Source: Marinomonas profundi (GTDB taxonomy: Bacteria; Pseudomonadota; Gammaproteobacteria; Pseudomonadales; Marinomonadaceae). Taken from it: a stretch of DNA of 64,000 nucleotides. The notes beneath the pieces were generated by a model, which did not search any database, was not told the DNA's origin, and saw nothing but the letters and a program-made list of their open reading frames with translations. The translations under genes and the position numbers were made by a program. The DNA is taken from the NCBI RefSeq assembly GCF_020694005.1, contig NZ_CP073013.1:2490578-2554577 (forward strand). Direction: 5' to 3'. This document shows positions 30,721 to 53,502 of this stretch, one piece after another (the first letter of the stretch is position 1; every line of letters begins with the position of its first letter).

Positions 30721-31548
30721 ATGGAAGTGGTGCAGCGTTATTGGATGATAGAGCTACTGGCTTTTTGGGAAGGGCAGATCAACACCAAGCCCTTGATGAA
30801 AAGCTTCGGATTAACACGTCAAAGTGTCAGCCCGTTATTTAAGCAATATCAAGAAGCGACGGGCAATGACTTTGTTTATGACAACAAACGCAAAGCCTAT
30901 CAAATAACCGACCAATTCAAACCACATTACATAGACCAAACCGTCGATGAATATTTTGATTGGCTAAACTACGGCAAAATCCCCACCTTCCCCAATACCG
31001 CCATCGAATCCACCCAACATCGGATAGAAGCCTTAGCGCGCTTCGTTTCGCCGCAAGTCATGCGGCCATTATTAAAAGCTGTTAAAGACAAAACCGCCGT
31101 AGACTGCGAATACCTATCCGTGTCCAGTAGCGATCCGCAAGGCCGCTTGCTCTATCCCCATAGCTTTGTCAAAACCGCTGGACGCTGGCATGTACGCGCC
31201 TATTGTGACATGCGACAACACTATCTAGACTTCGTACTGAGCCGTTTTCAACAGGTTGACTACGACGGCAAAACCAGCGAACACACAGAGCAACAAGACA
31301 CACTGTGGAGCACCCAAGTGATGTTAGTGCTTGCTCCAGATTCCCGCCTCACCGACAAACAAAAACAGGTATTAGAAAACGACTACGGCATGACCGACGG
31401 ACAACTGAACATCATCACCCGCGCCGCCCTCGTCAAATACACCCTCGACGACTTACAGATAAAAACCAAAATGCTCGAAGCCAACCCACAAGCCCAACAA
31501 CTCATCTGTGTTAACTATGCCGACATAAAACAATGGTTATACGACTGA
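30721..31548 (+). CDS. WYL-domain transcription regulator
   Basis: A 275-residue protein with an N-terminal winged-helix part (about 1-70: WEGQINTKPLMKSFGLTRQSVSPLF), a linker, a WYL-type domain (about 130-180: YLSVSSSDPQGRLLYPHSFV, then GRWHVRAYCDMRQHYLDFVLSRF) and a C-terminal extension. This is the arrangement of BrxR/CapW regulators that control phage-defence operons and are thought to sense nucleic acid ligands. AAAGGG precedes the ATG. It stands at the edge of the cas locus. Its last 22 codons occur a second time at 32544-32612, after the DinD-like gene, with silent differences. Control of the cas genes is possible but not shown. Confidence 0.8.
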   Translation: MEVVQRYWMIELLAFWEGQINTKPLMKSFGLTRQSVSPLFKQYQEATGNDFVYDNKRKAYQITDQFKPHYIDQTVDEYFDWLNYGKIPTFPNTAIESTQHRIEALARFVSPQVMRPLLKAVKDKTAVDCEYLSVSSSDPQGRLLYPHSFVKTAGRWHVRAYCDMRQHYLDFVLSRFQQVDYDGKTSEHTEQQDTLWSTQVMLVLAPDSRLTDKQKQVLENDYGMTDGQLNIITRAALVKYTLDDLQIKTKMLEANPQAQQLICVNYADIKQWLYD

Positions 31549-31580
31549 TAAGCACCGTTTAACATAGACATAGGGACAGG
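31480..31580 (+). repeat. Direct repeat copy 1 (WYL gene 3' end)
   Basis: The last codons of the WYL gene (ANPQAQQLICVNYADIKQWL, then YD and stop) and about 30 bp beyond are repeated at 32544-32640, on the far side of the DinD-like gene. Confidence 0.9.
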
Positions 31581-31673
31581 CAATGAAGCCGTTCTCAGCA
31601 TCTAGCCAAAAAGATCACAATATGATTATGTTTAATTTTTATCAGATCAAACCAACATTAAGGAGCGATGTTA

Positions 31674-32525
31674 ATGAAAAATGATATGACCCTATTTGAA
31701 GATTACCAAATTCGCCGCGTTTATGATGAAGAAGCCGAAATCTGGTGGTTTTCGGTGATTGATATTGTGCAAGTGTTGACACAACAAGTGGACTATAAGG
31801 CTGCCAGAAATTATTGGAAAGTGTTGAAAAATCGCTTAGCCAAAGAAGGCAGTCAGTTGGTTACAGATTGTAACCAACTGAAACTACCTGCGGCTGATGG
31901 CAAAAATTACCTGACCGATGTTGCCACCGCTGAAACCTTGCTACGCCTAGTGCAATCTGTTCCCAGTCCCAAAGCAGAACCTATCAAGCTTTGGCTGGCT
32001 AAGGTGGGCTATGAACGCATGCAGGAAATGGCTGACCCTTCCCGTTCACTTGACCGCGCTAGGGAAACTTGGCAAAAACATGGTCGCAGTGAAAAGTGGA
32101 TCCAGCAACGTATGACAGGGCAGGAGACTCGTAATAAATTAACCGATTATTGGGCTGATCACGACATCAAACAAGGTGAAGAATTTGCCATTCTCACTAA
32201 TATTATCCATCAAGAATGGGCAGACACCAGTGTTAAGGCGCATAAAAACCTCAAAGGTCTGAAAAGCCAGAATCTGCGTGATCACATGAGTGAGGCGGAG
32301 TTGATTTTTACCGCTCTTGCAGAATTATCCACTAGACATATTGCCGAAACCGAAGAGGCTACAGGGATGGATGAAAACAAAACTGCAGCCCTAGCGGGTG
32401 GCTCTATTGCCAAAAATGCCCGCAAGGATCTGGAAGCTAAAACAGGAAAAAAGGTGATTACCTCCGATAGCTACCTGCCTCCTGCAAAAAATAAACGCAT
32501 TAAGAAAAATGACGGTGACACATAA
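31674..32525 (+). CDS. DinD/BRO-like protein
   Basis: A 283-residue protein whose first half resembles the BRO-N/antirepressor domain (FEDYQIRRVYDEEAEIWWFS, VIDIVQVLTQQVDYKAARNY, LPAADGKNYLTDVATAE) and whose second half resembles the DNA damage-inducible DinD family (RETWQKHGRSEKWIQQRM, TGQETRNKLTDYW, MDENKTAALAGGSIAKNAR). I chose ATG 31674, 8 bases after AAGGAG. No LexA box is obvious upstream. The gene is flanked by two copies of the WYL gene's 3' end, so it entered this locus as a unit. Function is unknown; DinD antagonises RecA filaments in E. coli. Confidence 0.75.
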   Translation: MKNDMTLFEDYQIRRVYDEEAEIWWFSVIDIVQVLTQQVDYKAARNYWKVLKNRLAKEGSQLVTDCNQLKLPAADGKNYLTDVATAETLLRLVQSVPSPKAEPIKLWLAKVGYERMQEMADPSRSLDRARETWQKHGRSEKWIQQRMTGQETRNKLTDYWADHDIKQGEEFAILTNIIHQEWADTSVKAHKNLKGLKSQNLRDHMSEAELIFTALAELSTRHIAETEEATGMDENKTAALAGGSIAKNARKDLEAKTGKKVITSDSYLPPAKNKRIKKNDGDT

Positions 32526-32543
32526 TAATGATCACCTTTGTCA

Positions 32544-32640
32544 GCCAACCCACAAGCCCAACAACTCATCTGTGTTAACTATGCCGACATAAAACAATGG
32601 CTTTATGACTGATAAGCACCGTCAAACACTGATATAGGGC
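32544..32640 (+). pseudogene. Remnant 3' end of a second WYL gene copy
   Basis: Reads ANPQAQQLICVNYADIKQWL, YD, stop in frame, the same as the end of the intact WYL gene at 31548, but with silent codon differences (for example TTATACGAC against CTTTATGAC). It is a remnant of a diverged allele rather than a fresh duplication. Similarity continues some 30 bp past the stop. Confidence 0.85.
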
Positions 32641-32747: not shown

Positions 32748-33722
32748 ATGGAACAGTTCTCACCATCGGACATGAAAACCATATTGCACTCCAAACGAGC
32801 CAATATGTACTACCTCGAATATTGTCGTGTCTTAGTGAAAGACGGACGAGTGGAATATGTGACGGATGAAGGGAAACAATCTCTTTATTGGAATATTCCT
32901 ATTGCGAACACGACGTGTCTATTGCTAGGAAATGGTACATCCATAACTCAAGCCGCTGTTCGAGAGTTAGCAAAATCAGGGGTGTTGATCGGTTTTTGTG
33001 GCGGTGGTGGCGCGCCATTATTTTCGACCAATGAAGTCGATTTTGATGTGTCTTTTTTTAGCCCACAAAGTGAATATCGCCCCGTTGAGTATCTGCAATC
33101 TTGGGTGTCGTTTTGGTTTGATGAAGGCAAACGCTTAGAAGCAGCCAAGCAAATTCAAGCCCTACGGATTGAATACACGAGACAGCAATGGACTAATAAT
33201 TCAGCACTAAAAGATGCCGGTATAGTCATCAGTGTGGCAGATCTAAATAAAGCCTTGGATAGCTTTGAGCAAGCGGTTGCTAAAGTTTCCCATACGCAAG
33301 AACTCATGCTAGCTGAAGCAAGACTAACCAAAACCCTTTATAAAATTATTTGTGCCGTCACTGGATATAACGATTTTAAACGCGTGAAACAGGGGGCAGG
33401 AGTCGATTTCGCCAATCGCTTTTTGGATCATGGTAATTATCTCGCTTATGGCTTAGGCGCTACGGCCACTTGGGTATTAGGTTTACCTCATGGCTTATCT
33501 GTTCTTCATGGGAAAACTCGTCGTGGAGGACTAGTGTTTGATGCGGCCGATTTAATAAAAGATGGCATCATTCTACCGCAGGCTTTTATTAGTGCGATGA
33601 ATGGCGACAGTGAACAAGAATTCCGCCAAGCCTGTATTACCAATATTCGTCGATGCGAAGCCCTTGATTATATGATCGACAGTCTCAAGCAAATCAGTGA
33701 AACGCTTGGGGAAAAGAAATGA
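32748..33722 (+). CDS. cas1: Cas1, type I-F
   Basis: Cas1 is the integrase that inserts new spacers. The start at 32748 follows GAGAAGGG and gives MEQFSPSDMKTILHSKRANM, 324 residues, the usual I-F length; an open frame from 32688 adds 20 unlikely residues. The C-terminal helical domain carries the metal-binding residues: AEARLTKTLYK (Glu), LGLPHGLSVLHG (His) and LVFDAADLIKDG (Asp). The ATG of cas2-3 overlaps its stop (ATGA), so the adaptation pair is made together. No strong promoter was identified upstream. Confidence 0.96.
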   Translation: MEQFSPSDMKTILHSKRANMYYLEYCRVLVKDGRVEYVTDEGKQSLYWNIPIANTTCLLLGNGTSITQAAVRELAKSGVLIGFCGGGGAPLFSTNEVDFDVSFFSPQSEYRPVEYLQSWVSFWFDEGKRLEAAKQIQALRIEYTRQQWTNNSALKDAGIVISVADLNKALDSFEQAVAKVSHTQELMLAEARLTKTLYKIICAVTGYNDFKRVKQGAGVDFANRFLDHGNYLAYGLGATATWVLGLPHGLSVLHGKTRRGGLVFDAADLIKDGIILPQAFISAMNGDSEQEFRQACITNIRRCEALDYMIDSLKQISETLGEKK

Positions 33723-36700
33723 ACATTCTTTTGGTTTCCCAATGTTCTAAAAAAGCCTTAAAAGAAACTCGCCGCGTGATCGACCAATTTGCAGAGCGAA
33801 CCGGTGATCGAACTTGGCAAACCGCGATCACGGAACAAGGATTGGCAACGTTACGTAAACTACTCAAAAAAACCGCACGTCGAAATACTTCCGTGGCGTG
33901 TCATTGGATTCGGGGTCGTAACCGAACAGAGCTGAAATGGCTGGTGGGTAATCCACGCCGTTTTAACGAATGGGGTAGTGTGCCGACAAACGTAACAGGC
34001 CGAGATATCTTGCGTTCTGGCGATGAAAATACATGGCAAACCGCAGAAGACATCCGAGTGCTGGCTGGTATCGCTGCGCTGTTTCATGATTTTGGAAAAG
34101 CCAATAAAGCCTTTCAGGACAAACTAAATCCTAATAAGAAGACGCCAAGCTACGAACCGTATCGCCATGAATGGGTGTCGGTGCGACTATTTGAAGCCTT
34201 CGTGCTGCATGCGATTGAAGGTGTGGAAAAAAGTAAGCAAGACGCGGCATGGTTAACCTTGTTAAGTGACTTACCGGACGATATTGAAAGCAGCGTCATG
34301 ACGCGTCTTAAAAAGGATGGGTTAGACGCCAAAGTTTCTTCACCATTTACTGCGCTGCCGCCTGTTGCTAAGGCTGTTGCATGGTTGATCTTGTCTCATC
34401 ATAAATTGTTAGAACCTTTAGATGACAATACGGATTATGTGAAGTATCCAGAATTGTTGATGGATAGCTATATTAGAGCAGGATGGAATTCACCTCAATG
34501 CGACAATAAAGAGTGGCAATCAGCTGAGGTCGAAGCGGTTTGGACTTTCTCCAAAGGCTCGCCATTTTGCAGTAAAGTCTGGCGTGAGCGTATTAGCCGT
34601 ATTGCTTCGCAAGGCGCTAAACGTACACAGTTACTTACTCAATACTGGCTGAATCAGCCATTTTCTTTGCATCTCGCTCGCCTCAGTTTAATGTTGGGCG
34701 ATCATTATTATTCCTCACAAAAGTCCATCGGTCTTAAGCATCCGTGGCATGATGACAAAGGTTATAAAAAGGTCTATGCCAACACATGGCGCGAACGAGG
34801 TAGCCGAGATAATGGAAACTATAACCAAACCTTAGACGAGCATTTGATTGGTGTGTATCGTCATAGCCATCAAATCGTACGCTCTTTGTCGTCATTAAAA
34901 GAATCCTTGCCTGTCATTACCCGACACCCAGAATTGAAGAAGCGTACGTTAGACAGTCGTTTTGCTTGGCAAAATAAAGCCTACGAATTGGCTGTCAGTG
35001 TTCGAGATAAAGTAAAACAGCATGGTTTTTTTGGTGTGAATGTCGCGTCCACTGGCAAAGGCAAAACCTTTGCCAACGCGCGCATTATGTATGGTCTTGC
35101 CGATGACAGAAAAGGCTGTCGATTCAGTGTGGCACTTGGTTTGCGTACCTTAACCTTGCAAACAGGTGATGCTTTTAAAGAGTTATTACGACTCGACGAT
35201 GAAGATCTAGCGGTTCTTATCGGTTCTAAAGCCGTGAAAGATTTACATGAGCAAGCGAAAACCAAACAAATTTTAGCCGAGGAAAGTCAGCAGGAAGCCT
35301 TGTTGGGGTCAGAATCTGCTAATGATTTCAGTGACCAAGATAGCTATGTTAGCTACGAAGGTATGTTAGGTGATGGGCCATTATCACGTTGGTTAGAAAA
35401 CTCCCCTAAAAATAATAAGTTAGTTAATGCGCCTGTGTTGGTGAGCACCATCGATCATTTGATACCATCAACTGAAGGCAGTCGAGGCGGTAAACAAATC
35501 GCCCCCATGTTGCGTTTGCTCACCTCCGATCTAGTGCTCGATGAACCAGATGATTTTGGTTTAGAAGACTTACCGGCTTTGTGTCGATTAGTTAACTGGG
35601 CAGGCATGTTAGGGTCGAACGTATTGCTTTCATCAGCGACGTTACCACCTGATTTGATTAACGCATTATTTGATGCTTATCTTGCTGGTCGCAAGCAATA
35701 TGAAGCCTCGGTAAAAATAAACCCCAGTCAAACGCCCAATATTGTGTGTGCTTGGTTTGATGAGTTTCGCAGCGATTCCATTCAAGCTAGTGAACGTTCC
35801 GCTTTTTCTGAACAGCATCAAAAATTGATGGCAATGCGCGCTGAAAAGCTCCTAGGGCAATCTATCAAGCGGCGTGTCGAGTTAGTTGAGTGTTGTAATA
35901 GCGAAGACGATGAGCCTAGTGTTATTCAAGCCGTCGTTCAGCGTGTTCATCAAAGTATCTTAGCACTTCATAATGCGCACCATCATAAACATCCAACCTT
36001 GTCGGCCAGAGCCAGTTTTGGCCTAGTGCGTATGGCCAATATTAATCCGTTGGTGGCAGTTGCAAAGGCCTTGATGAATACGCCAAGCCCAGCAGGTATG
36101 CAGATACACTATTGTGTGTATCACAGTCAGTTTCTTTTATTGCAGCGCTCATCTATTGAGCAAATGCTGGACACGGTATTGAACCGCAAAGACCCAAATG
36201 CCATTTGGCATCATCCAAGTGTACATGTCGCATTAAAGGCCCAGCCAAATGACCAACATATTTTTGTGGTGCTTGGAAGCCCTGTAACAGAGGTGGGCCG
36301 AGATCATTCCTATGACTGGGCGGTCGTGGAGCCGTCGTCGATTCGTTCCTTGATTCAACTAGCAGGGCGAGTGTTGCGTCATTCAAGCGCGACAGTGGAA
36401 ACGGCGAACATTCATTTGCTCGATCAAAATGTGCGAGCCATGAAAAATGAAAAAGCCGCCTACACAAAACCAGGCTTTGAAGGTAATGCGTTTTTGTTAG
36501 ACAGCCATAAGCTGCAAAACTTATTAGAGCCCAATGAATATCAAACGATTAATGCCTTACCGCGTATTCAAAAACGCGATTTATTGGCCCCCACTAAGCG
36601 ATTTGTTGATTTGGAACACGCTGCTCTGCATTCTCAATTGTGGGGTAAAGACAAAGAGTTCGGTGAAGCGTTTGCTAGTTTGTGGTGGAACAAGCCCTGT

Positions 36701-37066
36701 CATTGGACGAATCATCTACAACGCAAATTGCCATTTCGACGTCATACGCCGGATGAATCTTATTGCTTTTATGTAGAGGAAGAATATGACGAACCGACTA
36801 TGCATCGCTGGCATGATAACGGTGAATTAAAGTCTGATGACAAGCAAAGCTTTCAGCGTGACAAAACTTGCGTATTCGCCATGGGGGTTCATAACTGGAT
36901 AAAAGATTTTGATTATCAAAGTGCGCTAGTCACCTTGGCGGACAAGCTTGACCTAGAGCTTAGCGATGCATCGATACAATTTGGCTCGATTCGATTGCGA
37001 AAGAGTGGCGAAAATGATGTATGGCAACAGAGTAGTGTATTGGGATTCTACAAACCCTCTAAGTAG
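33719..37066 (+). CDS. cas3: Cas2-Cas3 fusion nuclease-helicase, type I-F
   Basis: Type I-F fuses Cas2 to Cas3, joining adaptation and target destruction. The 1115-residue product has an N-terminal Cas2-like part (about 1-95: MNILLVSQCSKKALKETRRV), an HD nuclease (about 110-330: LAGIAALFHDFGKANKAF, LILSHHKLLE), and a helicase with Walker A VASTGKGKTFANA near residue 445, motif II LVLDEPDDF near 608, LLSSATLPP, and motif VI QLAGRVLRHSS near 885. All catalytic motifs look intact, so interference should work. The coding end is only 4 bp from an antisense mini-CRISPR that separates it from the csy genes. Confidence 0.97.
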   Translation: MNILLVSQCSKKALKETRRVIDQFAERTGDRTWQTAITEQGLATLRKLLKKTARRNTSVACHWIRGRNRTELKWLVGNPRRFNEWGSVPTNVTGRDILRSGDENTWQTAEDIRVLAGIAALFHDFGKANKAFQDKLNPNKKTPSYEPYRHEWVSVRLFEAFVLHAIEGVEKSKQDAAWLTLLSDLPDDIESSVMTRLKKDGLDAKVSSPFTALPPVAKAVAWLILSHHKLLEPLDDNTDYVKYPELLMDSYIRAGWNSPQCDNKEWQSAEVEAVWTFSKGSPFCSKVWRERISRIASQGAKRTQLLTQYWLNQPFSLHLARLSLMLGDHYYSSQKSIGLKHPWHDDKGYKKVYANTWRERGSRDNGNYNQTLDEHLIGVYRHSHQIVRSLSSLKESLPVITRHPELKKRTLDSRFAWQNKAYELAVSVRDKVKQHGFFGVNVASTGKGKTFANARIMYGLADDRKGCRFSVALGLRTLTLQTGDAFKELLRLDDEDLAVLIGSKAVKDLHEQAKTKQILAEESQQEALLGSESANDFSDQDSYVSYEGMLGDGPLSRWLENSPKNNKLVNAPVLVSTIDHLIPSTEGSRGGKQIAPMLRLLTSDLVLDEPDDFGLEDLPALCRLVNWAGMLGSNVLLSSATLPPDLINALFDAYLAGRKQYEASVKINPSQTPNIVCAWFDEFRSDSIQASERSAFSEQHQKLMAMRAEKLLGQSIKRRVELVECCNSEDDEPSVIQAVVQRVHQSILALHNAHHHKHPTLSARASFGLVRMANINPLVAVAKALMNTPSPAGMQIHYCVYHSQFLLLQRSSIEQMLDTVLNRKDPNAIWHHPSVHVALKAQPNDQHIFVVLGSPVTEVGRDHSYDWAVVEPSSIRSLIQLAGRVLRHSSATVETANIHLLDQNVRAMKNEKAAYTKPGFEGNAFLLDSHKLQNLLEPNEYQTINALPRIQKRDLLAPTKRFVDLEHAALHSQLWGKDKEFGEAFASLWWNKPCHWTNHLQRKLPFRRHTPDESYCFYVEEEYDEPTMHRWHDNGELKSDDKQSFQRDKTCVFAMGVHNWIKDFDYQSALVTLADKLDLELSDASIQFGSIRLRKSGENDVWQQSSVLGFYKPSK

Positions 37067-37070
37067 AAGG

Positions 37071-37159
37071 TTTGTAGAGCCGCTTGTTCAGCGGTGAAGA
37101 TATGCGGAGTTTTTTAAATATGCTCCATCATTTTCTGAGCCGTTTGATCAACGGTTTGT
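37071..37159 (-). CRISPR. Antisense mini-CRISPR: two degenerate repeats around a 32-nt guide
   Basis: On the minus strand, 37159-37132 reads as a degenerate repeat with the hairpin ACCGTTGATCAAACGGCT and the 5'-handle CTCAGAAA. Exactly 32 nt follow (37131-37100). Then 37099-37071 is a second degenerate repeat, starting CTTCACCGCTGAACAAGCGG. The main-array hairpin is ACCGCCGAATAGGCGGCT. Stem pairs C-G are replaced by T-A (one pair in the second copy, two in the first), and the 5-base loop is kept. Spacing and structure equal a normal I-F repeat-spacer-repeat unit, so Csy4 could process it. The guide matches 37201-37222 upstream of the csy genes. Sequence relations are seen directly; the regulatory role is inference by analogy with CreA-type guides. 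Confidence 0.88.
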
Positions 37160-37161
37160 GG

Positions 37162-37190
37162 ATTCTATGATAAAAAAGAAAAATAGTCTA
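37162..37190 (-). promoter_or_regulatory. Sigma-70 promoter for the mini-CRISPR
   Basis: On the minus strand TAGACT (37190-37185) and TAGAAT (37167-37162) are 17 bp apart. They match TTGACA in four of six and TATAAT in five of six. The expected start, near 37155, is the base of the first hairpin, so the RNA would be hairpin, handle, guide, second hairpin. Confidence 0.62.
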
Positions 37191-37224
37191 ACGGATATTA
37201 TTTTTTAAATATGCTCTATCATGG
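37191..37224 (-). promoter_or_regulatory. Target (protospacer plus CC PAM) of the mini-CRISPR guide
   Basis: On the minus strand CC (37224-37223) is followed by ATGATAGAGCATATTT and six A. The guide reads ATGATGGAGCATATTT and six A, so 21 of the first 22 bases match; the single difference is at position 6. The last 10 positions are unrelated. The site lies 54 bp before the small gene that leads into csy1. A TATTAT at 37243-37248 could be the -10 of a plus-strand promoter whose -35 region would fall on the PAM end of this site. Confidence 0.85.
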
Positions 37225-37277: not shown

Positions 37278-37481
37278 ATGTTTGATTTTGAGAGTGAAGA
37301 TGTCAGTAAAGAAGAGAGTGATAGTAAAACGGGCAATAAGAAAATTGAACGGAAGAAGAGAAAGGTCTTTCGTTTTGGTTTCCAAGATGATTTAACTGGA
37401 ATGGTTATTTACTCAGCGTTTTTTGTGTTTGGTGGATCTTCACTTGATTGGTTTGATCAGTTAAGAAATACGATTATCTAA
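37278..37481 (+). CDS. Small unknown protein at the head of the csy operon
   Basis: I do not recognise this protein. ATG 37278 is 8 bases after GAGG and gives 67 residues; an ATG at 37272 is too close to the ribosome site. The N terminus is acidic (FESEDVSKEESDS), the middle strongly basic (KKIERKKRKVF), and the C-terminal third hydrophobic (TGMVIYSAFFVFGG). Standard I-F loci have no gene here. It lies between the mini-CRISPR target and csy1 (32 bp after its stop), so it is likely co-transcribed with the csy genes. It could be a CreT-like toxin repressed by Csy plus the mini-guide, a Csy-associated regulator, or a non-functional frame. Confidence 0.55.
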   Translation: MFDFESEDVSKEESDSKTGNKKIERKKRKVFRFGFQDDLTGMVIYSAFFVFGGSSLDWFDQLRNTII

Positions 37482-37513: not shown

Positions 37514-38839
37514 GTGGCAAATTTATCCGACAAGATCCGCGATTACATCGACAGTCGCAAGCAGGATCGGCTAGATAAGTTCGATAAAGACACGCAAAAA
37601 GGCGTGAAAGCGGCGTCGGCAGAAAATGTCGCAGCATATGAAATGGAGCGGGCCGCTTTACGAGTCAGTGAAGAAGACCGCTTTAAACCCGCGAATTGGC
37701 TGAGTGATGCGGCAAGTCGAGCTAAGCAGTTGCAGCTCGTTACGCATGCGCTTAAATTTACTCACTCCGATGCCAAAGGGACAAGTTTGTTCGCAAAGGC
37801 AAGTGTGTCATCCGCACTGCCGTTTGTGTCTACATCTATCTTAGAAACTCCAAAGATTGATGTGGTGGGCAATGCGGCGGCTTTAGATGTTGGTAAACTG
37901 CTTTTGCTTGAACAGGACGATGGCAAATTGCTGGTGAACTTTATTCAGCAAGACGATATGTCTCCTTTTGAGCCGTTGGCAGAATCCAAAGAGCAATTAG
38001 TTGACTGGTTAGCGGGATTTAAGTTGGCCGTTACCGCCAAAGATCCAAGTTCTCATAAATTGGCTAAGCAACTTTACTGGCCTATTGACGGTAACTACCA
38101 TTTGCTTTTGCCTTTGTATGCCACATCGCTTTCTCAAGAAGTGTTTGAACGTGTGCAGCATGCTCGCTTTTCTGAAGAGCAAAAAGAGGCTCGTGCGGCT
38201 CGTCGAACTGAAAAAATGTCAGAGCTTGTTACCATCGAATTTCCTGATGTTGCCGTGCAAGCGTTTGGTGGAACTAAGCCACAAAACATTAGCCAATTGA
38301 ACTCTGGTCGTGGAGGACGTTCTTTCTTACTAAGCAGCGCACCGCCAACCTGGCAAAGCCAAGAAAAACCACCGTTAAAAGTGAAATCCATTTTTCGTGG
38401 GCCTTTTTCTCGCAAGGTGTATGGTCACCTTATCGGTTTGAAAAAATTCTTAGTCGCTAATTTGAATAAGCGCAGTGTTTGGGAAATACGTGCCGAAAGA
38501 GCGCGTCGTATCGACGACATAGTTGATCAGCTGGTGGCTTATGGGGCGAGTGTTCGGTCTTTTCCGGCGGGTTGGTCTTCCCATCCAGATTGTCATCTGC
38601 CACTACATCAAAAGCTTTGGTTAGACCCAAATCGACGCGCCTTTGATAAAGAATTTGAAGACGAATTTGATAAAAAAGAGTGGCAAGGTTTAGTCGCAGC
38701 GGATTTTTCTCGTTTCTTAAATGCTGAGCTAGAAAAAAATTCTGACATTGCCACAGGCGATGTTGAATTTGTGCAGTGGAAAGTCCTTACCGCTCAAGAG
38801 CTCAGGCTAGTACAAGACGACGTAAAAGGAGCTTTTTAA
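37514..38839 (+). CDS. csy1: Csy1 (Cas8f), large subunit of the Csy complex
   Basis: Csy1 is the large subunit of the type I-F surveillance complex and helps recognise the PAM and the 5' handle. The start is probably GTG 37514, five bases after AGGAGG; the frame opens upstream at a TTG without a ribosome site. The product has 441 residues, the family size. Recognisable parts are LSDKIRDYIDSRKQDRLDKF at the start, GGTKPQNISQLNSGRGGRSF in the middle, and LPLHQKLWLDPNR in the C-terminal part. csy2 begins inside its stop codon (TAATG). An early gene of the interference operon. Confidence 0.95.
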   Translation: MANLSDKIRDYIDSRKQDRLDKFDKDTQKGVKAASAENVAAYEMERAALRVSEEDRFKPANWLSDAASRAKQLQLVTHALKFTHSDAKGTSLFAKASVSSALPFVSTSILETPKIDVVGNAAALDVGKLLLLEQDDGKLLVNFIQQDDMSPFEPLAESKEQLVDWLAGFKLAVTAKDPSSHKLAKQLYWPIDGNYHLLLPLYATSLSQEVFERVQHARFSEEQKEARAARRTEKMSELVTIEFPDVAVQAFGGTKPQNISQLNSGRGGRSFLLSSAPPTWQSQEKPPLKVKSIFRGPFSRKVYGHLIGLKKFLVANLNKRSVWEIRAERARRIDDIVDQLVAYGASVRSFPAGWSSHPDCHLPLHQKLWLDPNRRAFDKEFEDEFDKKEWQGLVAADFSRFLNAELEKNSDIATGDVEFVQWKVLTAQELRLVQDDVKGAF

Positions 38840-41500: not shown

Positions 41501-44500
41501 CTTCACCGCCGAATAGGCGGCTTAGAAAGATTCCGAGATACCAAACTTTGACAGGCATTTCTTCACCGCCGAATAGGCGGCTTAGAAAACATAGGTCTTA
41601 GTGATCATTTGGTCTAGTGTCTTCACCGCCGAATAGGCGGCTTAGAAAGTGCCAGCCGCTTTCAATTCTTCTTCACTTTTCTTCACCGCCGAATAGGCGG
41701 CTTAGAAAAGCTACTAGAGAGGCAATATACTCTGCTTCTGCTTCACCGCCGAATAGGCGGCTTAGAAAAATACACACTAACGGGAAGCATATAGTGGTTC
41801 CTTCACCGCCGAATAGGCGGCTTAGAAATTCGCCTTTTACCGTCAGGTCTAGAGCGTTGACTTCACCGCCGAATAGGCGGCTTAGAAAAATCGAGTTGAT
41901 GAAGCGGAAGTCGCCACGCGCTTCACCGCCGAATAGGCGGCTTAGAAAAGCGCCAATGTAGCAGAGCCGTTATTGTAGGACTTCACCGCCGAATAGGCGG
42001 CTTAGAAAATATACCTCGAGAACACCCCAGCATTCAGGATCTTCACCGCCGAATAGGCGGCTTAGAAAAAAGCGGGTAAGGGGGTTGAGAATCAAAACGA
42101 CTTCACCGCCGAATAGGCGGCTTAGAAAGCAGTGGTTGCAAGAACTTGACCAGCATCATCCTTCACCGCCGAATAGGCGGCTTAGAAACACTTTCTCAGC
42201 CAGTACGCGAGCGTGGATGTCTTCACCGCCGAATAGGCGGCTTAGAAAAACTTGAATGTCTAGCGCGCCCACTTTCTCAGCTTCACCGCCGAATAGGCGG
42301 CTTAGAAAGCTTGAGCGTAATGTGTTTATTCCTTCGTGGCCTTCACCGCCGAATAGGCGGCTTAGAAATATCGTACCGCTAGTGTTACTTGCGGGCAGCT
42401 CTTCACCGCCGAATAGGCGGCTTAGAAACGCTGGCTATGTAGAGGCGCGTTTGATCGATACTTCACCGCCGAATAGGCGGCTTAGAAATAATACCTCCGC
42501 ATGGGGGAACGCTTCTAAAACTTCACCGCCGAATAGGCGGCTTAGAAATAAAGAGATTGGCAGGTTAGACTTAGATTCTTTCTTCACCGCCGAATAGGCG
42601 GCTTAGAAAACCAGTTTACAATGCTGCCCCAAGGCGCAGGTCTTCACCGCCGAATAGGCGGCTTAGAAAACTTAGCGCGTTGCTCGATAGATACGAGCCG
42701 ACTTCACCGCCGAATAGGCGGCTTAGAAAATCACAGGAATCAGCTAAGCCCGTAACACCTTCTTCACCGCCGAATAGGCGGCTTAGAAAGCGAATGATGC
42801 GCACGGCTAATTGGTTTTATTCTTCACCGCCGAATAGGCGGCTTAGAAAAAGAAAGAACACAGAAAGAGACAACGAAATCGCTTCACCGCCGAATAGGCG
42901 GCTTAGAAAAGAACCAATACCAGCAACCGTACCTTGTGGTGCTTCACCGCCGAATAGGCGGCTTAGAAATACTGCAGGTACAGACACAAGCCCATCATTA
43001 ACTTCACCGCCGAATAGGCGGCTTAGAAAAACCCCTAAACCGTTTATTCTCTCATCCATGTCTTCACCGCCGAATAGGCGGCTTAGAAATAACCCCTAAA
43101 CCGTTTATTCTCTCATCCATGCTTCACCGCCGAATAGGCGGCTTAGAAATCTGGTTAATTTAAAACCCACCGAAGTGGGTTTCTTCACCGCCGAATAGGC
43201 GGCTTAGAAATACTGCAACCCAGATAAGCCGCTCATTAACTCCTTCACCGCCGAATAGGCGGCTTAGAAAGAAAAAGGTTAGGGCGCTTCCGATTATCGC
43301 AACTTCACCGCCGAATAGGCGGCTTAGAAAAGTAATGCGGGCGGGCGTGATCTAATGAGTGTCTTCACCGCCGAATAGGCGGCTTAGAAATATGCTTTCA
43401 AAGTCCGCCACCAGTGCGGCTACTTCACCGCCGAATAGGCGGCTTAGAAATGGCAGGCGCTAAGCAGGCCATGAAGGTCGCGCTTCACCGCCGAATAGGC
43501 GGCTTAGAAATACCGTCATCTGTCTGACTTCGCTAGGGGATACTTCACCGCCGAATAGGCGGCTTAGAAAATTTCGCCGGCGCGTTTAAGGCTCATTAAA
43601 TCCTTCACCGCCGAATAGGCGGCTTAGAAAATTCGCCTGCTTGCCCACCTCAGTGCCGAGTACTTCACCGCCGAATAGGCGGCTTAGAAAGTAAACCGCT
43701 AGGCCGTACGCTTCGCGCCAGTCTTCACCGCCGAATAGGCGGCTTAGAAAAGAAGGCCGCAGAGGCAGCAGTAAAGGCAAGACTTCACCGCCGAATAGGC
43801 GGCTTAGAAAGCTGAATCGGCTATGTTGCTGAACGGCCAACTCTTCACCGCCGAATAGGCGGCTTAGAAAACGTCGTCGACGGCATAAGAAATAAACTCG
43901 GACTTCACCGCCGAATAGGCGGCTTAGAAATTAAACACTTTTTCGCCATCCCACAGGTGAGCCTTCACCGCCGAATAGGCGGCTTAGAAATAAAAGCATT
44001 CAGCCTCTCCAGTACCCACAAGCTTCACCGCCGAATAGGCGGCTTAGAAATGTGTCGGTGTTAGGGTTCCTCAATAGCCGGACTTCACCGCCGAATAGGC
44101 GGCTTAGAAATGCGTAACCATCGTATTCAACATCGTCACCGTCTTCACCGCCGAATAGGCGGCTTAGAAAACTAGACTAGCGCAAGCTGCTGCCGGCACT
44201 GGCTTCACCGCCGAATAGGCGGCTTAGAAAATGAAAACTGTTAAATATTTAAAAACCACACACTTCACCGCCGAATAGGCGGCTTAGAAAGATGTCATTG
44301 ATTGCTGTATCGTTCATGATACCTTCACCGCCGAATAGGCGGCTTAGAAAATTTAAAATCAAATCCCCACCGGTTACAAATACTTCACCGCCGAATAGGC
44401 GGCTTAGAAATGATGATGGGGAATGAGTAATGGCTAAGAAACCTTCACCGCCGAATAGGCGGCTTAGAAAATGGATTTATAGAGGTAGCGGATAGATTAG

Positions 44501-47500
44501 AGCTTCACCGCCGAATAGGCGGCTTAGAAAATAAGGCTTCCAAGTGTCCTGCGTTGTGATCTCTTCACCGCCGAATAGGCGGCTTAGAAATAAGAAATTC
44601 GACGTGTTGATCGACACCGCACCTTCACCGCCGAATAGGCGGCTTAGAAATCAGTGCCGAGTATTTGCGTAAACTTGTCAAGCTTCACCGCCGAATAGGC
44701 GGCTTAGAAAAATACGGTTTGGCACGCAGAGGCGCTAAAGTGCTTCACCGCCGAATAGGCGGCTTAGAAAAAAAGAGATCAGTAAATTAGACCTCAGTAA
44801 CTCTTCACCGCCGAATAGGCGGCTTAGAAATGTCTCTATGCCAGTTGATTAGGTTCTCTTTACTTCACCGCCGAATAGGCGGCTTAGAAATACTAGCCGA
44901 GCGGATGACCATCAATCTTGGTCTTCACCGCCGAATAGGCGGCTTAGAAACGAAAAATCTCTCTCCCCGCATCACAAATTTCCTTCACCGCCGAATAGGC
45001 GGCTTAGAAATAGACCAGTTATCGCGATTAAAAAGAATAGGGCTTCACCGCCGAATAGGCGGCTTAGAAAGCAATCAGAGGTATGGCGGTCGGACGTACG
45101 CTCTTCACCGCCGAATAGGCGGCTTAGAAAGCTACCCAACCAAGGTTCACACGATCCGCTAACTTCACCGCCGAATAGGCGGCTTAGAAAGTTGATCTTT
45201 GCCGCACCATCGGTGACTTCTACTTCACCGCCGAATAGGCGGCTTAGAAAGAGAATCGCCACAGCGTTCTTAACGAAGTAGTCTTCACCGCCGAATAGGC
45301 GGCTTAGAAAACTCAACACGTGAGGCGTTTCAGCTTCATTAACTTCACCGCCGAATAGGCGGCTTAGAAATATGCTGGTCAATCTTAATCAGGCGCAACG
45401 CGCTTCACCGCCGAATAGGCGGCTTAGAAATTGAAAGGCGTGCTGTACGAGCTAGGGAGGAACTTCACCGCCGAATAGGCGGCTTAGAAAGAAGGCACTA
45501 AAACGGGTTTAACCTTTGAAGTCTTCACCGCCGAATAGGCGGCTTAGAAAAAAAAAGAAGCGCAAATTCTCGAAGTTGCAACCTTCACCGCCGAATAGGC
45601 GGCTTAGAAAGCTTGCGATGCGGAGGCGATGCCCGTCAGCGCCTTCACCGCCGAATAGGCGGCTTAGAAAGCACACGAGTGCCGCATTAAAGGTGCGTAC
45701 ATCTTCACCGCCGAATAGGCGGCTTAGAAAGAATGCGTGGATCTTGTTTGCATGTTCGACGACTTCACCGCCGAATAGGCGGCTTAGAAAAGACCAATGG
45801 CGCCACGTAGAGAACGCCATAGCTTCACCGCCGAATAGGCGGCTTAGAAAACAACTTCATCAGTCCGGTATTTAGCGTGGATCTTCACCGCCGAATAGGC
45901 GGCTTAGAAATAGAGCAGCTTAGAAACACTCGCATCGAATTACTTCACCGCCGAATAGGCGGCTTAGAAATTGACGTACTGGGTCAGCTCAGAATAGAGG
46001 CTTCACCGCCGAATAGGCGGCTTAGAAAGTGTAAACCTTCCAGTTATGTTGAACTTCTCTCTTCACCGCCGAATAGGCGGCTTAGAAATCGGTCAGTTCG
46101 ACACCGCTCGGAATCGCCACCTTCACCGCCGAATAGGCGGCTTAGAAAGCCAGTTGGTTCGTTATTATTGATTGATGCTACTTCACCGCCGAATAGGCGG
46201 CTTAGAAATAATCAGTGGCGCAACGTAGAGAACGGCAGAGCTTCACCGCCGAATAGGCGGCTTAGAAATTTGGGGCGACTAAGTACGCACCGAATCAATG
46301 CTTCACCGCCGAATAGGCGGCTTAGAAATTATTCGGGCAGCAGAAAAAGCGAATCAGGGCCTTCACCGCCGAATAGGCGGCTTAGAAAGTCATACAACCT
46401 GAACTCACCACTAATATTCTCTTCACCGCCGAATAGGCGGCTTAGAAAATGAAGAACCTTTAAAGTGGCTCGAATCTCTGCTTCACCGCCGAATAGGCGG
46501 CTTAGAAAGCCTGTTTTTTTGTCGGCCTTGATGTCCAGCGCTTCACCGCCGAATAGGCGGCTTAGAAAATGCTAGTTCCTCCTATAGAATACCCGCCATT
46601 CTTCACCGCCGAATAGGCGGCTTAGAAAGAGAGCGGTAAACATCATCTTGCACACGCTATCTTCACCGCCGAATAGGCGGCTTAGAAATAGGCGCTGCTT
46701 TGCTATTGTCTCGCCGATGTCTTCACCGCCGAATAGGCGGCTTAGAAAAGACAAGACCTGTGGATGCGCCTATCTCCATGCTTCACCGCCGAATAGGCGG
46801 CTTAGAAATAGCCATGCCCTCCTTAAATCCGAACGTTCTACTTCACCGCCGAATAGGCGGCTTAGAAAATGTTGCCCGCTTGGTTTTCAACTCTCTTACC
46901 CTTCACCGCCGAATAGGCGGCTTAGAAACTTTAAGCCAAGTTTTGCAACTTCTTTGAGTACTTCACCGCCGAATAGGCGGCTTAGAAAGTGACGTGGTTC
47001 CTCGCGTCCTAGTAGTTTGGCTTCACCGCCGAATAGGCGGCTTAGAAACACATGATCGCTAACAATATCCCCCTCGTAGACTTCACCGCCGAATAGGCGG
47101 CTTAGAAATAAATAGTAGCACAAACCAGCCAAATAGGTATCTTCACCGCCGAATAGGCGGCTTAGAAAGTGAGCATTAAAAATTGACGGTCGCGCCTACT
47201 CTTCACCGCCGAATAGGCGGCTTAGAAACTGTTATTGCCGCTTATCTTATGTGCGACCAACTTCACCGCCGAATAGGCGGCTTAGAAAAGCTCCGCCACA
47301 AGTAATGGTAGATCGTTAAACTTCACCGCCGAATAGGCGGCTTAGAAAATCAACCTAGACATTGCTGCGGCCTGTCGATCCTTCACCGCCGAATAGGCGG
47401 CTTAGAAAGGAGGTGATCCACGATAACATGAGGCGGGTTCCTTCACCGCCGAATAGGCGGCTTAGAAAGTAGAGATTGCATTTTTCAAAACACCTGTGTC

Positions 47501-49449
47501 CTTCACCGCCGAATAGGCGGCTTAGAAACGATAAAACGACGCACCAATTCTACCCAACACCTTCACCGCCGAATAGGCGGCTTAGAAAGGGTATAGAAAT
47601 GCCAATATCTGGTTTAACTGCTTCACCGCCGAATAGGCGGCTTAGAAATCGTTAAATAGAAATTCGCTCTCTGACTCTCCCTTCACCGCCGAATAGGCGG
47701 CTTAGAAAATCAATAGAATCGCTCGGCAGTGGCGCATTCACTTCACCGCCGAATAGGCGGCTTAGAAAGTGCAAATCATGTGGTCTAAGCTTTCAAAAGT
47801 CTTCACCGCCGAATAGGCGGCTTAGAAAATTCCGCCACTTGAAACGCTTCGCTTGGGTTTCTTCACCGCCGAATAGGCGGCTTAGAAATGTGGTGGCAGC
47901 GTGTCAAGCCGTGACTATCACTTCACCGCCGAATAGGCGGCTTAGAAAATACTCACCTTACATCCAGCTCGTATCATGAACTTCACCGCCGAATAGGCGG
48001 CTTAGAAATTGACGACCTTTTAGAAGAAGCTGAGCAAGAACTTCACCGCCGAATAGGCGGCTTAGAAATTGGGCATGAATCGTATTTTATAACGATAACC
48101 CTTCACCGCCGAATAGGCGGCTTAGAAATTGGGCATGAATCGTATTTTATAACGATAACCCTTCACCGCCGAATAGGCGGCTTAGAAACTGCAAACCGTA
48201 AAGCGGAATTGATGGTAAGGCTTCACCGCCGAATAGGCGGCTTAGAAATTCGCTATTTGCATGGCCTAGCAAGTACGACTCTTCACCGCCGAATAGGCGG
48301 CTTAGAAAAAGAACTGACAGCCTTTAACACGTACCATTAACTTCACCGCCGAATAGGCGGCTTAGAAAGTTTCAATACGAGTCGCTTGCAGACTGATAGA
48401 CTTCACCGCCGAATAGGCGGCTTAGAAATGTGAGAATCTCACCAAAGGCACCGCGAGCCGCTTCACCGCCGAATAGGCGGCTTAGAAATATGAAAGGCAC
48501 AACAGCTTTAGCAAGGTTATCTTCACCGCCGAATAGGCGGCTTAGAAAACACAGAGGAAACAGGTAGTAAAGAAGAAGAACTTCACCGCCGAATAGGCGG
48601 CTTAGAAAATAAGTCACCTTTAAATCGAAAGTAATGTTTCCTTCACCGCCGAATAGGCGGCTTAGAAATTGTTTTGATTGATATTGAGCAACCCCAATTT
48701 CTTCACCGCCGAATAGGCGGCTTAGAAAATGCTGGTGCCCTATGAGCTCACATCAATATACTTCACCGCCGAATAGGCGGCTTAGAAATTACCCCGAGCC
48801 TTGCCGTTATTACTCTTCAGCTTCACCGCCGAATAGGCGGCTTAGAAATAGCAGCAATATCATTCTCATAATTACACTCTCTTCACCGCCGAATAGGCGG
48901 CTTAGAAAATTTATCGTCGTTAGTTGATACGCTTGAACCATCTTCACCGCCGAATAGGCGGCTTAGAAAGACTCAGATAGGAGGATCGAGCTTCACCTAC
49001 GCTTCACCGCCGAATAGGCGGCTTAGAAACGATCAATAGGTGTCGCGTTAATCGGTAAGAACTTCACCGCCGAATAGGCGGCTTAGAAATGTTGATATTT
49101 GAGCGCCTAAAGCCACTCCGTCTTCACCGCCGAATAGGCGGCTTAGAAAAGTGCCGCTAATAGTGCTCAAGAGTCACTTGGCTTCACCGCCGAATAGGCG
49201 GCTTAGAAAACTAAGTCTCTTAGGATTGTGGATGGTGAGTTCTTCACCGCCGAATAGGCGGCTTAGAAAAATTGCGTTGCATCTAGACGCCTTGAATATG
49301 ACTTCACCGCCGAATAGGCGGCTTAGAAACATTCGGTGTTAACCCCCTTCCAATCTCGGTTCTTCACCGCCGAATAGGCGGCTTAGAAAAGTGACTTCAA
49401 AAACTCGGCTTGGTCTTTTGGCTTCACCGCCGAATAGGCGGCTTAGAAA

Positions 49450-49809
49450 GTTGAATGAGTTGAGTGCTTTTACTACTTGTACTTCACCGCCGAATAGGCG
49501 GCTTAGAAAGAACGCTGTATCTGTTTTGTTGATTGTATGGCCTTCACCGCCGAATAGGCGGCTTAGAAATGTGGCCCCTGATTTCTTTAACTGATTTTCG
49601 TCTTCACCGCCGAATAGGCGGCTTAGAAAGTTGAATGAGTTGAGTGCTTTTACTACTTGTACTTCACCGCCGAATAGGCGGCTTAGAAAGAACGCTGTAT
49701 CTGTTTTGTTGATTGTATGGCCTTCACCGCCGAATAGGCGGCTTAGAAATGTGGCCCCTGATTTCTTTAACTGATTTTCGTCTTCACCGCCGAATAGGCG
49801 GCTTAGAAA
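49450..49809 (+). repeat. Tandem duplication of a three-spacer block
   Basis: Three consecutive spacers (starting 49450, 49510, 49570) recur unchanged at 49630, 49690 and 49750. The 180-bp unit was duplicated by recombination or slippage between repeats. Confidence 0.97.
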
Positions 49810-52800
49810 AGAGCTGGTCGATGTGTCTGGTTGTGGCACTTCTTCACCGCCGAATAGGCGGCTTAGAAAGACACAGCGGCCAGAACCAGCGCCAACGCAA
49901 GCTTCACCGCCGAATAGGCGGCTTAGAAATACCGCGAAAGCGGTTTTTTTGTGCCTGAAAACTTCACCGCCGAATAGGCGGCTTAGAAAGCTGTGCCGCT
50001 TTGTGCCGCCCAACCGTCTAACTTCACCGCCGAATAGGCGGCTTAGAAATGCGCGGCACGAGAAGCCGCCGACGAACGGGACTTCACCGCCGAATAGGCG
50101 GCTTAGAAACTCTACTAGATCAACGGTTTTGACCTCTCCAACTTCACCGCCGAATAGGCGGCTTAGAAAGCTCACGGGTTCAATTTTAGCCCTGACGTTA
50201 TCTTCACCGCCGAATAGGCGGCTTAGAAAAAAAATGGCGGTATCGGTCTGTTTTGTAGGTTCTTCACCGCCGAATAGGCGGCTTAGAAAAGCGGGTTTCA
50301 GCGAAATGGCTCTACGCCACCCTTCACCGCCGAATAGGCGGCTTAGAAAGTGGTCAACCAAACCTGCTACCATATTTTTTACTTCACCGCCGAATAGGCG
50401 GCTTAGAAAAGATCAGATAGGTGCTATCATCGAGCAAGCACCTTCACCGCCGAATAGGCGGCTTAGAAAGTAAGAGCTGGCTAGCTGCTGTAAATCCATT
50501 CCTTCACCGCCGAATAGGCGGCTTAGAAAATCTTCACAACAAGCAAGAGCCTTACTGATATCTTCACCGCCGAATAGGCGGCTTAGAAATAATGACCGAC
50601 TTATCCGGCGGCCTAGATCAGCTTCACCGCCGAATAGGCGGCTTAGAAAAAGATTGGCGCGACCTGATAAAGTGCTTAAAACTTCACCGCCGAATAGGCG
50701 GCTTAGAAAATCCAGAGCACGCGCTCGATATGCTGCACATACTTCACCGCCGAATAGGCGGCTTAGAAACCGTACTTGCGACCGCGACGTTTACAAAATA
50801 CCTTCACCGCCGAATAGGCGGCTTAGAAATCAGCCCGAGCAATTCTTGCAGGGTAGTAAGCCTTCACCGCCGAATAGGCGGCTTAGAAAAGTAGCCACAA
50901 TTGACAAGGAGACAGAAAAAGCTTCACCGCCGAATAGGCGGCTTAGAAATTCTTAAAATTGAACAATCAAAAGTTCATCACCTTCACCGCCGAATAGGCG
51001 GCTTAGAAATATCAGCAGTGATCGTACCGAGTACTTGACAGCTTCACCGCCGAATAGGCGGCTTAGAAATCGTTTTTACGGGCGGTGGCGTCGGTGATTA
51101 TGCTTCACCGCCGAATAGGCGGCTTAGAAAGAACGTGATAATCCAATAAAAACAGTACAAGACTTCACCGCCGAATAGGCGGCTTAGAAAATGAGCCGCA
51201 GACGATGGATGGGCCAACAGAACTTCACCGCCGAATAGGCGGCTTAGAAATAACGCAATGGCACTCTGTCTAACACTGTCAACTTCACCGCCGAATAGGC
51301 GGCTTAGAAAGCCGGCCGCTGTTTCGGATGTTAATTTTATCCCTTCACCGCCGAATAGGCGGCTTAGAAATACAAGTGAGCCATTAAACGATTGCCCCAA
51401 ACCTTCACCGCCGAATAGGCGGCTTAGAAAAAATGACCGATACGCCTAGCTACACGGGTCTACTTCACCGCCGAATAGGCGGCTTAGAAATTGACGAAAC
51501 AAGCCTAGCGAATATTTCCAGTCTTCACCGCCGAATAGGCGGCTTAGAAATACGGCGGTTGGTTGGGTAAACAATCCCCCGCCTTCACCGCCGAATAGGC
51601 GGCTTAGAAATGTTAAGTGTGTGGTTTGGGGTGACGACAATACTTCACCGCCGAATAGGCGGCTTAGAAACATCAACGTAACGTCCGACGGCGATGATGG
51701 TATCTTCACCGCCGAATAGGCGGCTTAGAAAATTCAGAACTACGGACACTTGGCGAATTTGCGCTTCACCGCCGAATAGGCGGCTTAGAAACGTACCAGT
51801 AGCGTCTCGTCAAAAATCCCCAACTTCACCGCCGAATAGGCGGCTTAGAAATATCAGCGCGCTTATCGACCTGGCTGCCTATCCTTCACCGCCGAATAGG
51901 CGGCTTAGAAAGACAACATGAGAGGATTTAACATGACTTTAATTCTTCACCGCCGAATAGGCGGCTTAGAAATATCGCACTTACACGCCTTGAAATATTA
52001 CTTTCTTCACCGCCGAATAGGCGGCTTAGAAAAGGTTGATAAGCGCGTAGATGGGTCGCCAGGTCTTCACCGCCGAATAGGCGGCTTAGAAATGCATCAT
52101 CTTGGTTCTGAGATCGTCTTCACCCTTCACCGCCGAATAGGCGGCTTAGAAACAATGCAGCAGGCAACGAGCGCGTGGTGGTCTTCACCGCCGAATAGGC
52201 GGCTTAGAAAGTCGATTTGCCGCAATACAAAACCGCAATCCGCTTCACCGCCGAATAGGCGGCTTAGAAATGTGAGCGGTTATGAGCGATCCATGTCTAT
52301 GCCTTCACCGCCGAATAGGCGGCTTAGAAAAATAATAGTTGTAAAGAATACTATTAGGTTGTCTTCACCGCCGAATAGGCGGCTTAGAAATCAGCCGAAA
52401 CAGGTGGAGGGCGCGACGGTTACTTCACCGCCGAATAGGCGGCTTAGAAATTTAACCAAGCCTCAGACAGCGCTATACCTAGCTTCACCGCCGAATAGGC
52501 GGCTTAGAAAAACAAAAACAAACGATTTTAGTGGGTTATTATCTTCACCGCCGAATAGGCGGCTTAGAAAGCATTGTGATGAATCCACCGTTCAGCGAGG
52601 GCCTTCACCGCCGAATAGGCGGCTTAGAAAGTAAAAGTTCTCAATCCCTCGGTAGCTCATCCCTTCACCGCCGAATAGGCGGCTTAGAAAGCTTCTCCTG
52701 GGCGGCGCGGCATTTATTTGCGCTTCACCGCCGAATAGGCGGCTTAGAAACGCAACGACGTTTTGACCCTGTACGCCCTGCACTTCACCGCCGAATAGGC

Positions 52801-53502
52801 GGCTTAGAAATATCAGGCACAGCGCGATTAGCTGGGGAGGTGCTTCACCGCCGAATAGGCGGCTTAGAAAGAGAACTAAAAAGCACAATTTCCACAACAG
52901 AGCTTCACCGCCGAATAGGCGGCTTAGAAACTAGTTTTTCCGATGAATTTAGCGATTCTGAACTTCACCGCCGAATAGGCGGCTTAGAAACTCAAAAATG
53001 CAACACTCGTCTACTTTTTCGACTTCACCGCCGAATAGGCGGCTTAGAAAAAGAAACGCACGATCTTTTGATTAGTCAGCAACTTCACCGCCGAATAGGC
53101 GGCTTAGAAAATGATTGCCGAACCCACATACAGCCCCGCTTTCTTCACCGCCGAATAGGCGGCTTAGAAAGTAACGATTGGGTTGCTAATATCGCCAGCG
53201 TTCTTCACCGCCGAATAGGCGGCTTAGAAAGATGATGTTTCTGGTTCTGTCGATTAGTAGGCCTTCACCGCCGAATAGGCGGCTTAGAAATGAGTAAATT
53301 CGACTGAGCTGGAAATAAGATTCTTCACCGCCGAATAGGCGGCTTAGAAAAATTTGATAGGATTTTTCATTTATCTCGTGAACTTCACCGCCGAATAGGC
53401 GGCTTAGAAATTTGCATTGGTATCCCATATGCCAATAATAGTCTTCACCGCCGAATAGGCGGCTTAGAAATTGTAAAAACGGGTGCTTTTCCATTGCATT
53501 CT

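Follow-up and report, generated by a model that had tools for sequence, protein, structure and literature searches.

Layout of the cas2-3/csy1 interval

The genome of Marinomonas profundi is a single contig of 3.65 Mb; the stretch of it analyzed here (64,000 nt, denoted the window) carries a type I-F locus with the gene order cas1, cas2-3, a 447-nt gap, csy1, csy2, csy3, csy4 and the main CRISPR array. The type I-F Cas2/3 gene cas2-3 (33719..37066, plus strand) matched Pfam Cas3_I-F_Cas2 (7e-42) and the Cas3 C-terminal domains. In the list of open reading frames, csy1 (37514..38839, plus strand) starts with GTG 3' of an AGGAGG, and csy2, csy3 and csy4 follow on the same strand up to 41371. The products of csy1 to csy4 all scored above the cut-offs of their NCBIfam profiles (TIGR02564, TIGR02565, TIGR02566 and TIGR02563).

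The main I-F array (41501..53470, plus strand) comprises 200 exact copies of the repeat CTTCACCGCCGAATAGGCGGCTTAGAAA. From 53471 on, it continues with changed repeats, in which CGAGCACGCGG replaces CGAATAGGCGG and the handle is kept. At 43001-43149 the array holds two adjacent spacers that are almost identical and offset by 1 base.

An initial annotation of the window had placed an antisense mini-CRISPR at 37071..37159, with two degenerate I-F repeats flanking 32 nt, the normal spacer length of the locus. We located this element, to within one base, at 37072-37159 on the minus strand. It consists of a first pseudo-repeat (PsiR1, 37132..37159; 17/28 matches to the main repeat), a 32-nt guide (PsiS, 37100..37131; 191 of the 199 main-array spacers have this length) and a second pseudo-repeat (PsiR2, 37072..37099; 21/28 matches). 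In a scan of both strands up to ∼41.35 kb for 28-mer pairs at a spacing of 59-61 nt, each 28-mer having at least 14/28 matches, the PsiR1/PsiR2 pair scored 38/56, and the runner-up among the pairs left of the main array scored 31. The Rfam family CRISPR-DR4 reported PsiR2 at E 0.01, which is under the gathering score, and did not report PsiR1 up to E 5.

The details claimed for the repeats also held. PsiR2 keeps the first nine bases of the main repeat, and PsiR1, which precedes the guide, keeps the 3' handle at 7/8 positions (CTCAGAAA vs CTTAGAAA). The stems are CCGTT/AACGG in PsiR1 and CCGCT/AGCGG in PsiR2 vs CCGCC/GGCGG in the main repeat, that is, two C-G to T-A pairs in one copy and one in the other. 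The position of the Csy4 cut in an I-F repeat determines which repeat halves the mature crRNA contains. The halves retained in a mature I-F crRNA are the better kept ones in both copies: the PsiR1 handle matches at 7/8 positions, and the PsiR2 5' flank and stem-loop match at 5/5 and 12/15, vs 1/5 for the discarded PsiR1 5' flank and 4/8 for the PsiR2 bases after the predicted Csy4 cut; the PsiR1 stem-loop matches at 9/15. This uneven decay fits a mature crRNA whose conserved parts are the handle of PsiR1 and the first 20 nt of PsiR2.

The predicted fold of the minus-strand RNA yielded z = -6.5 for a stretch that also includes a strong hairpin overlapping the cas2-3 end. This hairpin is an inverted repeat across the cas2-3 end and the PsiR2 tail (37048..37077, minus strand), which forms a 14-bp stem in the folded RNA. 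Marinomonas pollencensis (L005; L numbers denote loci of our survey) has a perfect palindrome at the equivalent position. In L012, L013, L017, L022, L023 and L034, a GCGCAC-type hairpin follows immediately on the end of cas3 and adjoins the second pseudo-repeat. The inverted repeat, and possibly these hairpins likewise, may mark the 3' boundary of the guide RNA.

The target site, orf67 and the predicted promoters

Guide nucleotides 1-22 match a site within the same gap (37201..37222, minus strand) at 21/22 positions, with the mismatch at nt 6; beyond nt 22 the pairing fades. The I-F PAM, CC, lies directly beside the target (37223-37224). CC followed by guide nt 1-16 (CC+ATGATNGAGCATATTT) has a single exact site in the 3.65-Mb genome. 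A second exact guide target was not found there, the next best being three sites with two mismatches, the guide itself included. None of the 199 main-array spacers reached 9/10 matches at a CC-flanked site between cas2-3 and csy1.

The target is located upstream of a small open reading frame, orf67 (37278..37481, plus strand), which ends 32 nt before csy1. It encodes a 67-aa protein whose N-terminal half is charged and whose C-terminal segment is hydrophobic, though only at the borderline (best 19-residue mean 1.24). The AlphaFold model is poor (pLDDT 54) and contains a low-confidence helix at residues 39-66. Among ∼5.8 billion proteins searched, the family numbers 10 members of 67-71 aa including the query, the other nine being 70-82% identical to it. 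Pfam and PHROG gave no match up to E 1, and no NCBIfam family was found. The comparison with M. pollencensis, which is one pair only, gave 14/3/17 differences at the three codon positions, a dN of 0.14 and a dS of 0.45; given these codon-position differences and a dN below dS, the frame looks coding. In a search of 390 genomes of the order, orf67 occurred only in its own genome and in one of the same genus; among 48 genomes of the genus it was present in two, adjoining csy1 in both. Searches of plasmids, phages and viral contigs for orf67, and of plasmids for the nucleotide sequence of the gap, gave no match. By analogy with known systems, orf67 is a candidate toxin or regulator, and we consider the odds that it is a toxin or alarm protein to be about even.

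A guide-RNA promoter was predicted at 37162..37190 on the minus strand (TAGACT at 37185-37190, 17 nt, TAGAAT at 37162-37167), which would start the RNA close to the first stem. It agrees with the consensus at 9/12 positions, and such matches are not in excess in this region (3 found, 2.0 expected from shuffles). The position of the -10-like hexamer across modules is the better promoter evidence: in 18 of the 23 modules described below it precedes the first stem by 6-10 nt, vs 3-8 of the 23 in seven other 5-nt bins; 300 shuffles gave a mean of 5.4 and a maximum of 12. This fixed place favors a minus-strand transcript that begins at the stem. The candidate forward promoter for orf67 and csy1 is weak by consensus. 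No terminator-like site was found between 36900 and 37600, so csy1-4 could be expressed by read-through from cas2-3 regardless of the guide.

The same anatomy is present in M. pollencensis, where both hairpins and the 32-nt spacing are kept; their absence in relatives with this locus is what the initial annotation had named as refuting it. The guide is a different one (8/32 identical), and its nt 1-11, nt 6 excepted, match two CC-flanked sites of the M. pollencensis gap that lie 32 nt apart. Guide and target have changed together between the two species, a pattern of coevolution. One of the two tandem targets in M. pollencensis overlaps the -35 element predicted for the guide promoter of that species. 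Four close relatives (L006-L009; Csy1 identity 72-90%) have an estimated 25-44 nt from cas3 to csy1; they have no module because the gap is missing and there is no room for one. Seven genomes of the genus have a Csy1 with at least 68% identity, of which only two have orf67 and the module.

Antisense modules in other type I-F loci

We collected type I-F loci from relatives of the M. profundi Csy1 (39 loci), from the genus and from a class-wide draw, in which 34 of 369 genomes matched and loci were obtained for 30 of 35 match rows. Three loci of the genus (L049-L051) share their cas3-csy1 region with the M. rhizomae, M. foliarum and M. communis records. The distance between cas3 and csy1 was measured in 77 cases (74 distinct), with gap ends estimated from protein matches; the 34 gaps of at least 100 nt were scanned and the 43 shorter ones were not. 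Excluded before counting were L026 (gap of 5.4 kb), L061, L062, L064 and L065 (upstream cas3 not found), L044-L047 and L067 (the window or its same-genus match again) and L001-L004 (array). The scan was blind to stems and sought, on both strands, a handle-like octamer, a second-repeat core and a site flanked by CC that the guide matches at 9/10 or more (nt 1-11, nt 6 omitted). It detected modules in 23 of the 34 gaps, all of them antisense, and in none of 4080 strands shuffled in two-base blocks. Among the 11 gaps that gave no module, L083 has a near-miss target (8/10). The scan motifs had been set from loci seen before, and 19 of the 23 modules had already been found by an earlier scan that required stems and had no target condition, for which 6 of 6800 shuffled strands matched. 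A plus-strand detection in L020 was judged to be chance, since its best target reached 4/10. Guides matched the gap of another locus in only 3 of 757 pairings.

Mismatches between guides and their targets peak at nt 6, 12 and 18. The excess at nt 6 is no independent test because this position was omitted from the target score; the peaks at nt 12 and 18 are independent. These two positions were mismatched in 33 of 46 cells, vs 25 of 115 cells for nt 13-17 (Fisher p 5e-9; 7e-8 after removal of L022, whose guide is common to L012 and L022). In the R-loop of Csy and other type I effectors, every sixth base is flipped out and left unread. The spacing of the mismatches matches this pattern, and the pairing therefore appears to be kept by selection for effector binding.

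The initial annotation had read the paired changes in the two stems as selection for the hairpin, and had proposed a covariation search in related I-F loci. At one locus the paired changes are thin evidence; over 20 loci the case becomes stronger, in part. In stems of the PsiR1 type, 97% of cells were paired and 17 double changes were seen in 20 rows, above all 500 shuffles, which ignore relatedness. Three of five measures exceeded every shuffle; the exceptions were the number of doubly changed pairs, reached in 23 of 500 shuffles, and the number of further pair types, reached in 313 of 500. This alignment used 20 of the 23 modules, L040, L057 and L084 having been dropped for loops other than 5 nt. 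Visual inspection shows a 5-bp stem closed by a GAAA loop in L057 and L084, and one with a wobble pair and a longer loop in L040; L079 pairs at 3/5 positions. With a 5-nt loop imposed on all 23 modules, 97 of 115 cells pair (shuffles: mean 85.7, maximum 91).

What lies between target and csy1 varies. An open reading frame of at least 45 aa was present in 10 of the 23 modules, three of which (L012, L022 and L070) have no ribosome-site match; two modules have only a shorter one (30-44 aa), and 11 have none of at least 25 aa ending by the csy1 start, a count that missed a 63-aa frame in L078 running into the estimated csy1 start. With 13 modules lacking a frame of at least 45 aa in this place, cargo is not universal. 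In six modules no more than 100 nt separate the target from the estimated csy1 start. The module frames of two Pectobacterium loci, Dickeya, Erwinia and Serratia encode small, partly hydrophobic proteins; identity to the first Pectobacterium protein is 89% for the second, 42% for Dickeya, 23% for Erwinia and 33% for Serratia, and the kinship of the latter two is uncertain. In L040 and L041, gaps of ∼215 nt hold a guide and a target 62-81 nt before csy1 with no frame between, which makes these loci candidates for a CreR-like I-F arrangement. L020 and L031 have a different layout: small minus-strand frames with a PWWLL stretch separate csy1 from the guide, and the target is 13-40 nt before csy1. 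Given this variety in frames and target distances, the same type of guide seems to serve both CreTA-like and CreR-like layouts.

Proposed self-repression and its alternatives

The M. profundi gap contains a repeat-guide-repeat form with kept crRNA parts and a genome-unique, PAM-flanked target, together with coevolution in a relative and parallel modules elsewhere. We propose, with a probability of roughly 0.82, that the antisense minimal CRISPR RNA loads the locus's own Csy complex, binds the CC-flanked site without cutting it and represses orf67 and csy1-4. The guide RNA would be transcribed from the minus-strand promoter and processed by Csy4 to an 8-nt handle, the 32-nt guide and a 20-nt hairpin. 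The mature RNA would begin with 5' CUCAGAAA, the last 8 nt of PsiR1 serving as its 5' handle and the first 20 nt of PsiR2 as its 3' hairpin. orf67 and csy1-4 would share one transcript, and repression would act at the promoter or as a roadblock. Mismatches distal to the PAM hinder cutting by the effector; as pairing fades after nt 22, we propose that cutting of the target is avoided. Loss of Csy, its diversion to other crRNAs or its inhibition by an anti-CRISPR would free the promoter, so that more Csy would be made and orf67 expressed.

CreR RNAs that regulate cas genes are reportedly the work of Liu et al. 2023, and CrePA is said to have been described by Shu et al. As in CreTA, two degenerate repeats cognate to the cas genes surround a spacer-like guide at the cas locus, and the guide partly matches a PAM-flanked site adjoining a candidate regulated gene. 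An ordinary CRISPR array was considered and rejected: the repeats match at 17/28 and 21/28, the strand is opposite to that of the main array and the guide matches its own locus. Judged by these features, the Marinomonas element is a CreTA/CreR-type guide, a variant within a known kind and not a new category. The initial annotation, which had likened it to crRNA-like regulators, is supported in this respect; it had missed the target, the small gene and the wide distribution.

There is precedent for an antisense creA between cas3 and csy1. According to the accessible part of PMC10097628 (Wang et al.), creTA occupies this gap in three Acinetobacter strains; 19 further modules are reported there, among which some of our 23 may be. 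The arrangement in Acinetobacter (WCHA45) is alike in its antisense creA with two degenerate repeats, the CC PAM, a partial guide match with a mismatch at nt 6 and a divergent cargo before csy1; repression was shown there, with a natural guide that mismatches its target at nt 6, 11 and 18. The Acinetobacter guide has 20 nt, whereas the Marinomonas guide has 32 nt with pairing over 22 nt, and the Acinetobacter cargo is a 33-bp mini-ORF whose toxic product is RNA despite the conservation of the frame, in contrast to a conserved 67-aa protein. We rejected orf67 as a counterpart of the Acinetobacter creT, given 67 codons vs the 33-bp mini-ORF, and codons 2, 3 and 5 that read TTT, GAT and GAG, not the TTT, AGC and CAT of creT in that excerpt. 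The I-E CreTA of Citrobacter rodentium, in the portion of PMC12055562 at hand, shares the position between cas3 and the effector genes, the divergent CreA, the PAM-flanked target and a small frame; its 96-bp toxin ORF, which must be translated for toxicity, is described there as having no known relatives, whereas the I-F cargo of Marinomonas is a 67-aa candidate toxin with relatives. Two-repeat creA genes are called common in the available section of PMC8501985. Neither the Marinomonas module nor the orf67 protein was among the literature matches listed, for queries that did not include the genus name; the 67-aa cargo family, the turnover of guide and target and the I-F breadth were not found in a literature search that mostly covered papers outside subscription.

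The alternative that comes closest has the repression step in common with our preferred reading, the role of orf67 being the sole difference; the two probabilities therefore overlap. It holds that the guide is a CreR-type autorepressor tuning csy1-4 to crRNA supply and anti-CRISPRs, with orf67 a harmless leader or Csy accessory, and we regard it as a plausible minority view. Like CreR, the Marinomonas guide is crRNA-like and partly matches a site upstream of effector genes, and as orf67 ends 32 nt before csy1 both lie behind one target; the targets close to csy1 and the modules devoid of any frame of at least 25 aa look like pure csy control in type I-F. CreR is described in PMC12737573 as generally uncoupled from toxin genes; the Marinomonas locus has a small gene, possibly for a toxin, between target and csy1, its 67-aa protein is under purifying selection, and small frames recur there in other modules. 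Moreover, CreR is named for I-B, I-E and V-A in the excerpt of PMC13131331, though PMC12737573, likewise in excerpt, ascribes it to type I and V-A generally.

That the toxic product is instead the transcript after the target, with the 67-aa frame incidental, is unlikely. The Acinetobacter I-F system shares gap, orientation and PAM and has an RNA toxin despite its mini-ORF (PMC10097628, in part), but conservation of the protein over 10 sequences, the codon-position pattern with dN below dS in one pair, and the start codons that differ from creT argue against it. A CrePA, in which a KilA-N-type protein toxin repressed by CreA stops cells invaded by anti-CRISPR carriers, would share the protein cargo, the CreA-like guide and the predicted logic of repression; CreP is typically a KilA-N protein according to the accessible text of PMC12737573, however, and no such domain is recognizable in orf67 at the Pfam and PHROG thresholds given above, which renders this reading improbable. 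Least credible of all is a functionless relic of an ordinary array, with decayed repeats and a self-matching spacer derived from recombination. Degenerate repeats would be expected of a relic, and the 22-nt match could come from self-acquisition; yet guide and target differ jointly in M. pollencensis, the mismatches are periodic, decay is concentrated in the halves that a crRNA discards, and the element recurs in 23 of 34 gaps, always antisense.

This frequency of modules suggests that self-regulation, and possibly addiction, is common in type I-F. We hold more tentatively, at somewhat less than even odds, that I-F loci across Gammaproteobacteria commonly self-repress Csy and that many couple effector supply to a small membrane-type toxin. 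Were that so, loss or block of Csy would both rebuild the effector and arm a suicide protein, a new family of CRISPR-guarded toxins would begin with orf67, and guides would be replaced jointly with their targets over short evolutionary time. Anti-CRISPRs against I-F may trigger such circuits, and the small proteins behind module targets are candidate toxins. The combination of handle, second repeat and CC-flanked match, applied without regard to stems, provides a testable rule for retrieving these guides, and the mismatches at every sixth base would document, in natural sequences, the guide bases that are read by the Csy complex.

On the cas1 side of the locus, a 97-nt stretch at the end of a WYL-domain gene (31479-31575) recurs at 32543-32639 with 92% identity. 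The second copy follows a Bro-N-domain gene (31668-32525) and lies just 5' of cas1; from the sequence, the Bro-N-domain gene looks as if it had been inserted between the two copies.
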